Below, one piece after another: positions 10,780-58,150 of a stretch of 64,000 nucleotides of DNA. The stretch is taken from assembly GCA_019638805.1 (NCBI GenBank), contig JAHBTA010000001.1:372001-436000 (forward strand). Reading direction: 5' to 3'. Within the stretch, counting starts at the first letter, position 1. Every line of letters begins with the position of its first letter. Position numbers and translations under genes: made by a program. The stretch comes from Microbacteriaceae bacterium. Lineage in GTDB: Bacteria; Actinomycetota; Actinomycetes; Actinomycetales; Microbacteriaceae. The notes below the pieces were generated by a model. It had not been told where the DNA came from, did no database searches, and saw only the letters and a list, made by a program, of their open reading frames with translations.

Positions 10780-11417
10780 CGGGCACGCTCCGTCGCGTCG
10801 GCCGGGAGCCCGGTGAAACGCCACCCGGTCTTCATCGTGAAGTCGCAGTACGTGCGGTCGAGGATGAGCATGAGGGAGACCATCCCGTCGATGAAGCGCG
10901 CGTTGTGCAGGGGGCCGCAGTCGAGCCAGCGGAGGCCGAGGTCGCTCGCGAGCTCGGCGACGGCCGCCTTGGCCGCTTCGTCGTCGCCCGCGATCTTGAC
11001 GTCGGGCCGCTCGGCGTCGTCGGCGTTGATGGTCGCCGCGAAGTTGTCCTTGAACGCGGCGACGAGTCCCTCGCTGCCGCCCAGGGCGTCCGCCGTGAAC
11101 TCGGCCGCCGCGCGCTCGTTGTGCGCGAGGTGATCGAACGGGTTTGAGATGTCGATGACGATCTTCCCGCGCAGCGCCTCGCGGAGGCTGGTCACCGTTG
11201 GGACGACCTCCGGGAACGGGATCGCCAGGACCACGAAGTCGGCGCCCTCGACCGCCTCGGCGGGCGTCCCCGCGAAGACCGGCGCGAACCCGAGCTTCTC
11301 CGCCGTGGCGTTCCCGGCGTCGCGCGTCCCGATCCGCACCGAGTGGCCGGCCCTCGTCCACCCCGCCCCGAGCGCCTTGGACATTAGTCCCGTTCCGAGG
11401 ATCGCGATGACGCTCAC
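10776..11417 (-). CDS. NADP-binding F420-dependent reductase-fold protein
   Basis: The 213-residue protein has a Rossmann N-terminus (AILGTGLMSKALGAG) with IGTRD after strand two, and belongs to the NADP oxidoreductase, coenzyme F420-dependent family (PF03807). The segments FVVLAIPFPEV, VIDISNPFDH and LDCGPLHNARFIDGM follow the family order. The GTG start overlaps the stop of the preceding small gene as GTGA. Many members use NADP alone, so F420 use is not proven. It is probably a redox step in the same pathway. Confidence 0.75.
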   Translation of the reverse strand: MSVIAILGTGLMSKALGAGWTRAGHSVRIGTRDAGNATAEKLGFAPVFAGTPAEAVEGADFVVLAIPFPEVVPTVTSLREALRGKIVIDISNPFDHLAHNERAAAEFTADALGGSEGLVAAFKDNFAATINADDAERPDVKIAGDDEAAKAAVAELASDLGLRWLDCGPLHNARFIDGMVSLMLILDRTYCDFTMKTGWRFTGLPADATERAR

Positions 11418-11725
11418 AGCTGGACCTCCCCGCCGAATGCCGAGGCGACGTGCGAGACCTGCGGGGCCGTGACGAGGAACGGCCCGATGAGCTCGTCGAA
11501 GGAGTGGAAACCCGGCGACGACACGAAGCGCTCCGTGTGGTCGCCGATCTCGCGCCACGTCACGAGGAACACGTAGTGCCCCGGGCGTTCGACGTCGGCC
11601 ATCAGCCGGGAGCCGAGGTGGCCCTCCGCCGCGCGCACGAAGGCCACGGCGTTCTCGAACACCTCCTCGAACTCGGCGCTGCGCTCGGTGTCGATCTCGA
11701 TCGCTGCAATCTCCAGAACGCTCAC
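11414..11725 (-). CDS. Antibiotic biosynthesis monooxygenase (ABM)-domain protein
   Basis: The 103-residue protein has the ABM ferredoxin-like fold pattern: an opening beta strand (VLEIAAIEID), an FVRAAEGHLGSRLMADV helix-strand region, YVFLVTWREIGDHTERFVSS and a short tail. YgiN-like relatives are small quinol monooxygenases or uncharacterised. It is the first gene of the leftward operon and directly faces the divergent control region at 11726-12114. Its place at the head of the operon may mean handling of a reactive intermediate, but this is speculative. Confidence 0.75.
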   Translation of the reverse strand: MSVLEIAAIEIDTERSAEFEEVFENAVAFVRAAEGHLGSRLMADVERPGHYVFLVTWREIGDHTERFVSSPGFHSFDELIGPFLVTAPQVSHVASAFGGEVQL

Positions 11726-12114
11726 GCGTCGGCTCCTTTCCGCGGCTCCGCGGTGTGAACATCGCCGGGGCTGGCACAGCGATGGGACGGGTCTGGCCAG
11801 CGCGGTGTGGCCGCACTGCCAAATGGATTGGGCCGACTCTAGCCGCGTGGGCGCGCCGGGGTCAAGTCGCCAAGACTTGGCGTGTTGACAGGCAACGAGG
11901 GGCCTGCTTTACTCGGCTCTCAAGTTGCGAAATGGATTGGGCACAGCCAAGGTGGCTGCCAAAGCGATTTTGCAACCCGAGCGGTCGCTGCGGCCCGTAG
12001 GGTCGCAGCGGGACCGCTCAGCGGCGGTTCGCACCCGCGGGCCGCGAATCCCTCACACCGTCGCGACGACCTCGAAAGCGCGGAGTCGCGCCGTAGGATG
12101 CAAAGGAGCACCAA
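11726..12114. promoter_or_regulatory. Divergent control region of the catabolic operon and ABC importer
   Basis: This 389-bp non-coding region separates the two operons. A leftward promoter is proposed with -35 TTGACC at 11860-11865 and -10 TAGAGT at 11836-11841 (18-bp spacer). A rightward one has -35 TTGACA at 11885-11890 and a weaker -10 TTTACT at 11908-11913. Between the two -35 boxes lies the perfect palindrome CGCCAAGACTTGGCG (11868-11882). The sequence AAATGGATTGGG occurs just downstream of each promoter, within 11818-11835 and 11926-11943. A LacI-type palindrome is at 11957-11974. The layout suggests one or more regulators control both operons together. Confidence 0.65.
11957..11974. 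promoter_or_regulatory. LacI-type operator palindrome
   Basis: TGCCAAAGCGATTTTGCA is an 18-bp imperfect palindrome with the central CG step typical of LacI/GalR operators (pattern TGCNAAANCGNTTTNGCA). It lies 140 bp upstream of the binding-protein start. The half-site recurs near the LacI gene (16401) and as TGCTAAAGCG upstream of the FAD oxidoreductase (993). Confidence 0.6.
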
Positions 12115-49946: not shown

Positions 49947-51200
49947 ATGGGCAGCGTCAAGCCATACGAGACCGCGAACGGCCGCAGGTATCGCGTCCAG
50001 TACCGCAAACCGGACCAGACGAACACCACCAAGCGGGGCTTCACGACGAAGAAGGCCGCCGAGCTGTTCCTGGCAACCGTCGACGTCGACATGTCCCAGG
50101 GCCGCTACATCGACCCGTCCCTGGCAAAGGTGACACTCGCCGAGTGGCTGAAAACCTGGCTTGACGCGCGCAATGACCTGCGGGCGACCACCCGCAGCCG
50201 GGTGGAATCGATCATCGATACCCACATCAGGCCGGAGCTCGGCAACATCAAGATCGGCAACCTCACCCGGCTGCGCATCCAGGAGTGGGCCTCCGGACTG
50301 CCTGGTGCCCCGGCGACTGTACGGAAGACCGTCAACGTTCTCTCCGGAGCGCTGCGCTTCGCCGTCGAAGATGGGCGGCTCGTCAACAATCCTGCACACC
50401 GGCTCCGGCTGCCGAAGGTCGTCAAGAAGGTCCGCCGCTACCTAAACCACGAGCAGGTCGCCGCCCTCGCCCGCGCGGTCGGCGGGATCTCCGACGGCAC
50501 CCGGCACGGCTACCACCTCATCGTGCTCACCCTCGCGTACTGCGGGCTGCGATGGGGCGAGCTATCAGGCTTGCGGATCATGGACCTCGACCTCACCCAA
50601 GCGCGCCTGACCATCCGGCAGACTGTCGTCGCCGATCGCGGCTACCAGCGGATCGAGCCGCCTAAGGACTACGAGCAGCGCACGATCCCGATCCCGGCGT
50701 TCCTGTGCCGGCTGCTCACGCCCCACATCGCGGACCGGAGCCCCGAGGAGCCGGTGTTCTATGGCATCCGCACCGGCACCTGGCTGCGCAATCACGTCTT
50801 CCGCGTCGGCTGGTTCGACCGCGCCGCCGCCGAGATCGGCATCAAGGGCCTCACGCCGCACGAGATGCGCCACACCGCCGCGAGCCTCGCCGTCTCCGCC
50901 GGCGCCAATGTCAAGGCCGTCCAACGGATGTTGGGACACGCCTCCGCTGCGATCACCCTGGACGTCTACAGCGACCTGTTCGACGAAGACCTCGACAAGG
51001 TCGCTATCTCCCTCGACCGCGTCGCCATGCAGACCTCCATCGCCGAGCTGCTCGGTAAAACCGAGACGTTCGAACTCGAACCCGAGCGTGTTGCACGTCC
51101 CGGATTGGTCGAGCTGCCAGCCGCGGTGCGACGCTCGCCGTGGGACGACGTGCCCCCACTGCCCGATCCGCCGATGACCGGCGCCGGCCCTGGCCTCTGA
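49947..51200 (+). CDS. int: Tyrosine site-specific integrase
   Basis: The 417-residue protein is a tyrosine recombinase. It has an arm-type DNA-binding N-terminus, a SAM-like core-binding domain (VTLAEWLKTWLDARND) and a catalytic domain with Arg in GLRWGEL (about 201), Lys in PPKDYEQRTIPI, HEMRHT (about 305), LGHASAAIT and the nucleophile Tyr in LDVYSDL (about 340). A Pro-rich tail of about 60 residues follows. It lies 280 bp from the 3' end of tRNA-Glu, the probable attachment site, and should integrate and excise the conjugative element. Confidence 0.92.
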   Translation: MGSVKPYETANGRRYRVQYRKPDQTNTTKRGFTTKKAAELFLATVDVDMSQGRYIDPSLAKVTLAEWLKTWLDARNDLRATTRSRVESIIDTHIRPELGNIKIGNLTRLRIQEWASGLPGAPATVRKTVNVLSGALRFAVEDGRLVNNPAHRLRLPKVVKKVRRYLNHEQVAALARAVGGISDGTRHGYHLIVLTLAYCGLRWGELSGLRIMDLDLTQARLTIRQTVVADRGYQRIEPPKDYEQRTIPIPAFLCRLLTPHIADRSPEEPVFYGIRTGTWLRNHVFRVGWFDRAAAEIGIKGLTPHEMRHTAASLAVSAGANVKAVQRMLGHASAAITLDVYSDLFDEDLDKVAISLDRVAMQTSIAELLGKTETFELEPERVARPGLVELPAAVRRSPWDDVPPLPDPPMTGAGPGL

Positions 51201-51476: not shown

Positions 51477-51552
51477 TGGTGACCCCAGCGGGATTCGAAC
51501 CCGCGTTACCGCCGTGAGAGGGCGGCGTACTAGGCCACTATACGATGGGGCC
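51477..51552 (-). tRNA. tRNA-Glu (anticodon CTC)
   Basis: Read on the minus strand, the 76-nt gene starts GGCCCCATCGTATAGTGG, has the anticodon stem CCGCC/GGCGG with loop CTCTCAC (anticodon CTC, Glu), a T-arm with GGTTCGAATCC and encodes CCA. All arms pair. Its 3' end faces the integrase gene, which makes it the likely attachment site of the conjugative element; the gene itself is intact. Confidence 0.95.
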
Positions 51553-55867: not shown

Positions 55868-56455
55868 ATGAGCGTGCGGGTGGTCCCGGTCGTCGACGCG
55901 CCGTGGGATGACGTGCGCACCGTATTCGGCACGCGCGGCGACCCGGCGCGCTGCTGGTGCCAGTACTTCAAGGTGACAGCGGCGACCTGGAAGGCGCAGG
56001 ACATCGCGGGCTTCGAGCGCGGCCTGTGCGACCAGGTGGATGCGGCGCGCACCTCCCACGGGGCCGGTCCCGGGCTGCTCGCCTACGAGGGCGATGACCC
56101 GGTGGGCTGGGTGGCGATCGAGCCCCGTCCGGCGTACCCGCGCATCCTGAGCTCGCGCATGGCCGAGCACAGCGCCGAGCCGGCTGACGCGGAGGACGTG
56201 TGGTTCGTGTCGTGCTTCGTGGTGCGGGTGGGGCACCGGCGCAAGGGCATCGCGGGGGCGCTCCTGGCGGGCGCGGTCGAGCACGCGCGGGCCAACGGGG
56301 CGCGAGTCGTGGAGGCCTTCCCGGTCCAGGCGCTTCCGGGTACCTCGAGCGCCGATCTCTACCACGGGCCGCTCTCGGCGTTCGAGGCCGCGGGGTTCGA
56401 GGTGGTGGCGCGGCCCGCCGAGGCTCGCGCGGTCGTGCGCCTCGCCCTGGGTTAG
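55868..56455 (+). CDS. GNAT-family N-acetyltransferase
   Basis: The 195-residue protein has a GNAT core: GDDPVGWVAIEPR, VWFVSCFVVRVGHRRKGIAGALLAGAVEHARANGA (acetyl-CoA binding Q/RxxGxG/A-type loop RRKGIA) and the closing strand with Phe-rich end. The N-terminal RCWCQYF segment is common in a subgroup of uncharacterised actinobacterial acetyltransferases. The substrate is unknown. Its end overlaps the convergent permease gene by 4 bases. Confidence 0.85.
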   Translation: MSVRVVPVVDAPWDDVRTVFGTRGDPARCWCQYFKVTAATWKAQDIAGFERGLCDQVDAARTSHGAGPGLLAYEGDDPVGWVAIEPRPAYPRILSSRMAEHSAEPADAEDVWFVSCFVVRVGHRRKGIAGALLAGAVEHARANGARVVEAFPVQALPGTSSADLYHGPLSAFEAAGFEVVARPAEARAVVRLALG

Positions 56456-57273
56456 CTGTCGCCGCGCGCCGAGCGGCGGGCCCGGATCGCACGGTGGGTC
56501 AGCTCGATCGACACGACGAGCATGAGGACGCCGAACAGCACCGCCGACAGCCGCGGGGGAAGCAGGAATGCCAGGGCCACCCCGCCCAGGCTGGCGAGCA
56601 CGGCAGCGCCCCCGACGATGAGCCCGTCGCTCGGACGGACCATGCCCGCGCGGGCGTTCGCGACGGTCCCGGTCGTCGCCGTCGGGATCATCGCCACCAG
56701 TGAGGTGCCCTTCGCGATCAGGTCGCTCACCCCGAACACGGTGATCAGCACCGGCACGATGATGACTCCGCCCCCGATTCCGAACATCCCGGCGGCGATG
56801 CCGATCACGAGGCCGAGCACGACGAGTCCGGCGACGACACCCGGCGACAGTTCGAGCCCGGTGCCACGCGCGGGCACCTCGAGGAACATGCGCGCGGCGA
56901 CCATCACGAGCAGCACGATGAACATCCAGCGCAGCCATCCCAGGGGCAGGGTGCGCAGCAGCTTCGTACCGACAAGGCTGCCCGCCATGCCGCCGGCGGC
57001 GATCAGCAGGGCCGCGACCAGGTCGAGCTCGCCATTGACCAGATAGCCGACCGAGCCGGCTACGGCGGTGGGCACGATGGCGGCCAGTGAGGTCGCTGCG
57101 GCCCTGCGCTGATCGAAACCGGCCAGCCAGATCATGAGCGGCACCATGATGGTGCCGCCCCCGACCCCGAAGGCACCCGAGAGCAGTCCCCCGAGCGCGC
57201 CGACCAGCAGAAGGGCCAGGACGCGCCGCGGAGTGTACGGCTCGCGCGCTGCGGGAGCGGGCGCGGTCGTCAC
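56452..57273 (-). CDS. TauE/SafE (TSUP) family permease
   Basis: The 273-residue protein has eight hydrophobic segments in two halves, each with the family glycine-rich block: GGLLSGAFGVGGGTIMVPLMI and GIAAGMFGIGGGVIIVPVLI. TSUP permeases export or import sulfur anions and small organic acids. The GTG start at 57273 (TTAPAPAAREPYTPRRV) removes an unlikely 49-residue extension. It stands alone between a GNAT gene and the tRNA-Gln repeat. Confidence 0.85.
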   Translation of the reverse strand: MTTAPAPAAREPYTPRRVLALLLVGALGGLLSGAFGVGGGTIMVPLMIWLAGFDQRRAAATSLAAIVPTAVAGSVGYLVNGELDLVAALLIAAGGMAGSLVGTKLLRTLPLGWLRWMFIVLLVMVAARMFLEVPARGTGLELSPGVVAGLVVLGLVIGIAAGMFGIGGGVIIVPVLITVFGVSDLIAKGTSLVAMIPTATTGTVANARAGMVRPSDGLIVGGAAVLASLGGVALAFLLPPRLSAVLFGVLMLVVSIELTHRAIRARRSARGDS

Positions 57274-57315
57274 CGGCCCAGTCTGCCGGATCGCGCTGCC
57301 GGTGGGTTTCTCATC

Positions 57316-57336
57316 ACATTGGCTGGGGTACCTGGA
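57316..57336. repeat. Copy of the tRNA-Gln 3' end (left attachment-like repeat)
   Basis: The 21 bases from 57316 are identical to 58072-58092, which form the last 17 bases of tRNA-Gln (including CCA) plus 4 bases beyond. The copy lies 25 bp before the MntA start and has no tRNA body. Such a displaced tRNA end marks the far side of an integrated element. Confidence 0.85.
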
Positions 57337-57360
57337 ATCCTCCCCCGGTATCCTGGAGGC

Positions 57361-57690
57361 ATGTCCGCTACCGCCGCTACGCCCGAGACGCTCGCCCTGC
57401 GCGAGCTCCTCGCTGCGCACCGTGGCGAGTTCCAGATGCTCCTAGAGAAGTACGCGGCGAGCGACCCGCGACTCTTCGGGTCGGTGGCGCGGGGCACTGC
57501 AGACGAAGGCAGCGACATCGACATCCTCGTCGAGATGGACCCGGCGGACGGCAACCTCCTCATGCGCGCCTCGGGGCTCATGGAGGAGGCCCGCGTGCTC
57601 TTCGGTCGCGACGACATCGACGTCTTCCCGGTGCAGTTGCTCAGGCGGCCGATCTCAGAGTCGGCACTCATGGACGCCGTCGCCCTGTGA
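57361..57690 (+). CDS. mntA: MntA-type nucleotidyltransferase antitoxin
   Basis: The 109-residue protein is a minimal nucleotidyltransferase. The catalytic pattern GSVARGTADEGSDIDILVEM provides GS and the DxD pair, and the third aspartate is in DDIDVFPVQ. MntA antitoxins AMPylate a tyrosine of the paired HEPN toxin. The ATG at 57361 has GGAGG just upstream; an earlier ATG at 57319 lies inside the tRNA-Gln repeat. It overlaps hepT by 4 bases. Confidence 0.85.
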   Translation: MSATAATPETLALRELLAAHRGEFQMLLEKYAASDPRLFGSVARGTADEGSDIDILVEMDPADGNLLMRASGLMEEARVLFGRDDIDVFPVQLLRRPISESALMDAVAL

Positions 57691-58022
57691 GCCGAGGCAC
57701 CGAACAGCGCGTCGCCGATATCCTCCAGGCGATCGAACGCTGCCGGCGCTACGTCGACGCGCTCGACAGCGATGACCAGGACCTCGTTGACATGGCAGAG
57801 GATGCCGTCGAGCGGAATCTGCAGATCATCGGTGAGGCGACAAACCACCTCCCGGAAGAGATCACTGGCGCCCACCCGGAGATCGCCTGGCCGCAGATCC
57901 GCGGCTTCCGGAACATCCTCGTCCACCAGTACTTCGGCGTCGACGTCGCCACCGTCCGGGATGTGGTTGAGACGCACCTGCCGCCGCTCGCTGAAGCGTT
58001 ACGGGGTCACATCAGAGCGTAG
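57687..58022 (+). CDS. hepT: HepT-type HEPN ribonuclease toxin
   Basis: The 111-residue helical protein ends its third helix with RNILVHQYF, the RX4HXY motif of HepT toxins, in which the Tyr is the AMPylation target. The GTG start overlaps the mntA stop. Together they form a complete MntA-HepT toxin-antitoxin module, lying between tRNA-Gln and a duplicated piece of it. Confidence 0.88.
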   Translation: MSRGTEQRVADILQAIERCRRYVDALDSDDQDLVDMAEDAVERNLQIIGEATNHLPEEITGAHPEIAWPQIRGFRNILVHQYFGVDVATVRDVVETHLPPLAEALRGHIRA

Positions 58023-58071
58023 AGATTGCGCGCCGTGGAGATATTCATATCGGATCGCACGGGCGCGGCCG

Positions 58072-58092
58072 ACATTGGCTGGGGTACCTGGA
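58072..58092. repeat. Right copy of the 21-bp tRNA-Gln end repeat
   Basis: This is the genuine 3' end of tRNA-Gln plus 4 downstream bases; it matches 57316-57336 exactly and in the same orientation. The two copies bracket 735 bp containing only mntA and hepT. Confidence 0.85.
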
Positions 58093-58150
58093 CTCGAACC
58101 AAGAACAACTGAACCAGAATCAGCCGTGTTGCCAATTACACCATACCCCA
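58076..58150 (-). tRNA. tRNA-Gln (anticodon CTG)
   Basis: On the minus strand the 75-nt gene starts TGGGGTATGGTGTAATTGG, has an anticodon loop TTCTGGT (anticodon CTG, Gln), a T-loop GTTCGAGTC and a closing acceptor TACCCCA followed by G and encoded CCA. The acceptor stem pairs over 7 bp. It is intact and its 3' end is duplicated 756 bp to the left. Confidence 0.93.

Follow-up and report, generated by a model that had tools for sequence, protein, structure and literature searches.

Several described systems come close to the locus reported here. Cis-mobilizable elements (CIMEs) have been defined as a class (PMC5704250), and 15 integrase-less units from the Dehalococcoides ssrA islands have been described and proposed as possible CIMEs (PMC3146451). 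CALIN cassettes depend on an integron integrase (PMC11389934). MntA-HepT toxin-antitoxin pairs are defined by two motifs, GSX10DXD in MntA and RX4HXY in HepT (PMC7641770). In a 64,000-nucleotide stretch of a Microbacteriaceae genome (here referred to as the window), a pair of this type is the only content between two copies of the tRNA-Gln gene's 3' end (Table 1). We interpret the locus as a 756-bp CIME reduced to its addiction module, the remnant of an island in tRNA-Gln(CTG), and place the probability of this interpretation at slightly below 0.6.

Table 1. Features of the tRNA-Gln locus, in window coordinates
Feature	Position	Strand	Evidence
Permease gene (TauE/SafE), ancestrally next to the tRNA 3' end	56452..57273	-	PF01925, 7.9e-45; adjoins tRNA-Gln in congener G001
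Left repeat copy, displaced tRNA-Gln 3' end, attR-like	57316..57336	+	Exact match to 58072-58092
Element interior, only mntA-hepT	57337..58071		Missing from congener G001, flanks syntenic there
TATCCT, -10-like box 7-12 bp ahead of the mntA ATG	57349..57354	+	Conserved at -12..-7 in 38 homologues
mntA, MNT-domain antitoxin, 109 aa	57361..57690	+	PF01909 (NTP_transf_2), 2.1e-9; GSX10DXD intact
hepT, HEPN RNase toxin, 111 aa	57687..58022	+	PF01934 (HepT-like), 7.3e-26; RX4HXY intact
Right repeat copy, attL-like, inside and just past the tRNA-Gln 3' end	58072..58092	+	Exact 21-bp match
Intact tRNA-Gln(CTG)	58076..58150	-	ARAGORN

The repeat, ACATTGGCTGGGGTACCTGGA, is present as two exact copies in direct orientation with a spacing of 756 bp. 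Seventeen of its 21 bases belong to tRNA-Gln, comprising the CCA, the discriminator, the acceptor 3' strand, the T-stem 3' strand and the last base of the T-loop, and the remaining four lie past the end of the tRNA. None of 100 shuffled sequences gave such a 21-bp repeat, which serves as the chance expectation. When up to two mismatches were allowed, the 18-base core TTGGCTGGGGTACCTGGA was found at two sites only in the 3,139,123-bp (3.14-Mb) assembly, and these are the two repeat copies. Considering also that the locus lies well within a 733-kb contig and that a congener carries the empty arrangement, a chance repeat or an assembly artefact can be regarded as refuted. A preliminary description of this DNA had reported a 21-base direct repeat containing 17 tRNA-Gln bases and enclosing only mntA and hepT; exact matching, ARAGORN, the open reading frames and the Pfam domains agree with it on each point. 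Its end coordinate of 58150, which takes in the tRNA gene, is right. It had named a repeat common elsewhere in the genome as the outcome that would count against its reading, and the repeat is not common there.

The two genes overlap by 4 bp. The MntA motif reads GSVARGTADEGSDID and the HepT motif reads RNILVHQY. The NCBIfam equivalog scores of the two proteins (32.8 and 46.7 bits) are each below the 60-bit cut-off, which is a naming threshold and lies outside the biological definition of type VII toxin-antitoxin systems. The TATCCT-like box is common to 38 homologues, among which no position upstream of -14 from the mntA ATG exceeds 0.5 bit, and translation of mntA is predicted to begin from a leaderless start. 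Since the regulatory signal is confined to the 14 bp before the ATG, the unit may bring its own minimal promoter wherever it lands.

We compared the locus with one genome of the same genus (G001, 77% complete), which is syntenic with the window on both sides (~51-57 kb and ~60-64 kb). This congener has one copy of the tRNA-Gln end, followed directly by the TauE/SafE gene, and contains no HepT match. When the window flanks were joined across one copy of the repeat, they aligned to the congener through the whole tRNA. The empty tRNA-Gln site that the preliminary description had suggested looking for in a relative was thus found, with a single copy, no pair and synteny on both sides; a relative that lacks the pair and keeps both copies, the contrary outcome, is not what this genome represents. 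Because the comparison covers a single, incomplete congener, loss of the unit in its lineage, instead of gain in that of the window, is an alternative. The insertion parts TauE/SafE from tRNA-Gln (window 57273-58150), two genes that abut on the same strand in the congener, and the permease may consequently have lost read-through from the tRNA promoter.

To characterize the target, the 14-mer CTGGGGTACCTGGA was searched in 400 genomes of the family. It normally occurs once per genome, in tRNA-Gln. Extra copies were present in about 20 of the 400 genomes, on the same contig and strand at distances of 1.2 to ~140 kb, and some form tandem arrays of three or four at tRNA-Gln; a few distant copies are plain coding matches (L106 and L110). 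Larger elements with the same tRNA end do exist in the family, as had been anticipated. One genome (G021) carries a 24-kb island in tRNA-Gln(CTG) with a displaced tRNA copy of 35 nt and, at the tRNA end, a tyrosine integrase with a small open reading frame beside it, and integrases related to this one adjoin tRNA-Gln in other genomes too. Tandem integrase-less units of metabolic genes were seen at tRNA-Gln in two further genomes (G089 and G212). Across the family, tRNA-Gln(CTG) is thus a hot spot of integration, used by elements with an integrase and by others that have none. Together with the empty site in the congener, the larger elements make the proposed footprint of site-specific integration well supported.

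Import without a dedicated integrase, either by homologous recombination from a strain with this arrangement or by microhomology repair that duplicated the tRNA end, is also worth considering, given that the flanks are homologous across the genus and that the pair occurs widely among actinobacteria, in many settings that have no repeats. We judge it improbable. Microhomology repair gives no reason why the duplicated stretch should be exactly a tRNA 3' end at a hot spot, and homologous import would leave the donor's arrangement still to be explained.

There is no integrase either between the repeat copies or next to them; the nearest, at 49947-51200, belongs to a tRNA-Glu island. The preliminary description had treated this absence as noteworthy; the absence itself is real, but it is not peculiar to the locus, since most of the small att-delimited units read at tRNA-Gln carry no intact tyrosine integrase. 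Using a profile built from local integrases, we detected an intact one in none of eight att-delimited units from other genomes, which range from 1.24 to 17 kb. Integrase-less units measure 1.24, 5.1, 6.7, 8.9, 10.6, 15 and 17 kb (among them L123 at 1.24 kb, L124 at 5.1 kb and L224-L226), and a 5.2-kb unit (L125) holds a 144-aa integrase fragment. One integrase-less unit encodes HipBA, a DNA adenine methyltransferase and a 545-aa protein without a Pfam match. Another contains a single unknown 170-aa open reading frame.

The tRNA-Glu integrase closes an island-like region (~20000-51552 of the window) beside tRNA-Glu(CTC) at 51477-51552; no second tRNA-Glu end for this region was found within the window. 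As a helper for the tRNA-Gln unit we rejected this integrase, given its location and its merely distant relationship to the tRNA-Gln type. The 3.1-Mb window genome (G000) has 12 tyrosine-recombinase matches (contigs C1, C3, C4, C5 and C7; L131-L142), some of which adjoin tRNA-Pro, tRNA-Ile, tRNA-Leu and tRNA-Thr/Met. Two of its integrases are relatives of the G021 integrase that targets tRNA-Gln; they are located at tRNA-Pro and tRNA-Ile, and were set aside as helpers because action on tRNA-Gln is possible but unsupported. Neither a second unit nor an integrase beside tRNA-Gln was found in the window genome assembly.

We also looked for a parent element. No larger tRNA-Gln island with both ends and the window's pair inside it was found. 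Two genomes in which HepT lies 7 kb (G139) and 51 kb (G073) from tRNA-Gln were discarded as intermediates because no second att copy was found in either. A viral origin was rejected, as IMG/VR contained no HepT relative, and the tRNA-Gln matches listed in annotated phage records were mostly tRNA genes and not attP sites; a 16-mer is common to 12 IMG/VR stretches. A plasmid origin was likewise rejected, the only relatives having less than 60% identity.

The left copy of the repeat bears directly on how the unit arose. In other tRNA-Gln elements, the left copies are ~32-35 nt long, beginning at the tRNA 3' end and reaching the anticodon loop, and many of them have an arm-like stretch next to them on the inner side. 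The window left copy has 17 nt of tRNA, stops sharply at the T-loop and is shorter than in every other element seen; no arm-like motif lies beside it, and the mntA promoter region begins directly after it. As the copies of other elements reach the anticodon loop, the window copy looks truncated, which favours a remnant over a mobile mini-island at this locus. A simple explanation of the short copy would be a deletion with one end within it and the other immediately ahead of mntA. Alternatively, the integrase may have crossed over nearer the 3' end, since a repeat of 17-21 bp would be normal for an acceptor-stem crossover. Similarity to the closest homologue, which is in G069 and 80.5% identical at the DNA level, sets in 3-4 bp past the left copy and continues as far as the hepT stop. 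In that genome hepT is frameshifted (L086, ~11193-12090), and an att-like tRNA-Gln sequence in degraded form (ACTCGAACCGACAACAACTGA, then AAGTTCCGCG) lies ~0.5 kb past hepT.

For the CIME-remnant interpretation, we propose that an element integrated site-specifically at the tRNA-Gln(CTG) 3' end, most likely after the split from the congener, and that a tyrosine integrase would have catalysed this step. Deletion would then have removed the remainder of the island, with one breakpoint within the left att copy and the other shortly before the -10 box of mntA. By adenylylating HepT, an RNase, MntA would keep it inactive; loss of the pair would therefore be selected against, and the pair would outlast the island. 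Given an apparently truncated left copy and an assembly in which no integrase was seen at tRNA-Gln, the unit is probably not mobile by itself now, and we infer its remnant status from the short copy and the missing helper. What counts against this interpretation is that shrinkage of this kind would have had to recur many times to account for the pairs that stand alone elsewhere.

A scan of 84,980 genomes for related pairs yielded 66 loci, mostly actinobacterial. Exact flanking repeats of at least 17 bp, within at most 300 bp on each side, were present at 7 of the 43 usable loci (the window left out), compared to 7 of 812 control pseudo-modules put in the same loci (Fisher p = 1.3e-6, with the kinship of the species ignored); as three of the seven loci come from Demequina that are close relatives of each other, fewer than seven are effectively independent. 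The 3' end of ychF serves as the repeat in Demequina, Rothia nasimurium, Gulosibacter hominis, Gordonia hydrophobica and others. In Actinomyces glycerinitolerans, the pair is flanked by copies of the 3' terminus of a gene for a putative membrane protein, and in Microbacteriaceae UBA6152 the flanking repeat is a 187-bp stretch. Beyond the 300-bp test, Brevibacterium sp. 68QC2CO has the pair between tRNA-Ala 3' halves in a 2.8-kb unit. A tree of MntA and HepT has a backbone without resolution and is firm only for a mainly Demequina ychF group, so target switches are not countable.

A single unit of 638-1259 bp, delimited by copies of the ychF end, is occupied by the pair in Demequina, Gulosibacter, Rothia and others, and at ychF the pair is often one unit of a one-directional array of degenerate copies (GGTTGTTCGGCTACGGAACGYGGTSGAGTTCMGSTTCAACGTGTAG; arrays L167, L152, L148, L146, L162 [Demequina], L160 [Gulosibacter hominis], L154, L159, L179, L174 and L180). 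The highest count, nine sites in 8 kb, is in Demequina soli. Units neighbouring the pair carry PIN, HEPN and HTH genes. Across the arrays, units span ~0.46-2.5 kb and hold small toxin-antitoxin-like genes. No tyrosine recombinase was found beside the arrays in the five genomes searched. Prophages in ychF are known from Streptococcus pneumoniae (PMC6375853). We found no earlier report of ychF-end arrays in Actinobacteria, which is weak evidence of novelty because subscription papers were mostly outside the literature search.

These loci keep a second explanation of the window alive, namely that an integrase encoded at another locus inserts and excises the pair together with its short ends. Both this route and the shrinkage of a larger element had been put forward in the preliminary description. 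The excess of flanking repeats over controls, the differing duplicated targets (the ychF end, tRNA-Ala, a membrane-protein gene end and another gene) and the occurrence of the pair as one unit in arrays would all fit such movement, and the conserved signal close to the ATG would allow a unit this small to be self-sufficient. At the window itself, the left copy is without the arm-like motif of many tRNA-Gln elements and the genome offers neither a second unit nor a tRNA-Gln-adjacent integrase, while the ychF arrays have no tyrosine recombinase beside them; on balance, we consider a mobile unit possible but unlikely. A broader proposal, which we regard as speculative and rather doubtful, is that MntA-HepT and other small toxin-antitoxin genes circulate in Actinobacteria as integrase-less cassettes of ~0.6-1.3 kb captured at tRNA and ychF 3' ends, with arrays built by a trans recombinase; the window would then be a single-cassette array at tRNA-Gln.

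Taken together, these data suggest that MntA-HepT pairs outlive, or travel as, minimal islands. The window locus looks like a minimal surviving genomic island, consisting of an att site, an addiction pair and an att site. More surprising than the locus itself is that such pairs recur where the ends of unrelated genes have been duplicated, a pattern that allows a test of whether toxin-antitoxin genes outlive islands or move as units. If one trans recombinase does drive the ychF-end arrays, they would constitute an actinobacterial gene-capture system outside integrons.

Among known systems, the locus is best filed as a CIME, the new aspect being a very small variant cut down to an addiction pair. 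It has attL and attR flanks, no integrase or transfer genes inside and an empty site in a relative; having no integrase of its own, it does not qualify as an autonomous element (ICE, IME or prophage). Similar to CIMEs (PMC5704250), it keeps both att sites without integration or transfer genes and occupies a tRNA hot spot at which relatives show tandem accretion; unlike them, it is 0.76 kb long with a toxin-antitoxin pair as its sole cargo, its left att copy is shorter than those of its neighbours, and its parent element was not found. The Dehalococcoides islands (PMC3146451) resemble it in that 20-bp copies of an RNA-gene 3' end bound units with or without an integration module, but they differ in their ssrA target, serine recombinase and reductive dehalogenase cargo. 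In the tRNA-Trp island CGI48 of Shewanella putrefaciens, a toxin-antitoxin pair, HipAB on GI21, likewise stabilises a tRNA-integrated island, although that island is large and acted on by an integrase and an excisionase (PMC8978831). The pair itself matches type VII MntA-HepT (HEPN/MNT; PMC7641770) in Pfam domains, gene order and both motifs, while falling under the NCBIfam equivalog cut-offs and having a toxin-antitoxin role predicted from sequence. Finally, the ychF-end arrays are like CALIN and integron arrays by analogy only (PMC11389934): both comprise small units and short sites with the recombinase not beside them, whereas the sites of the ychF-end arrays are copies of a gene end.
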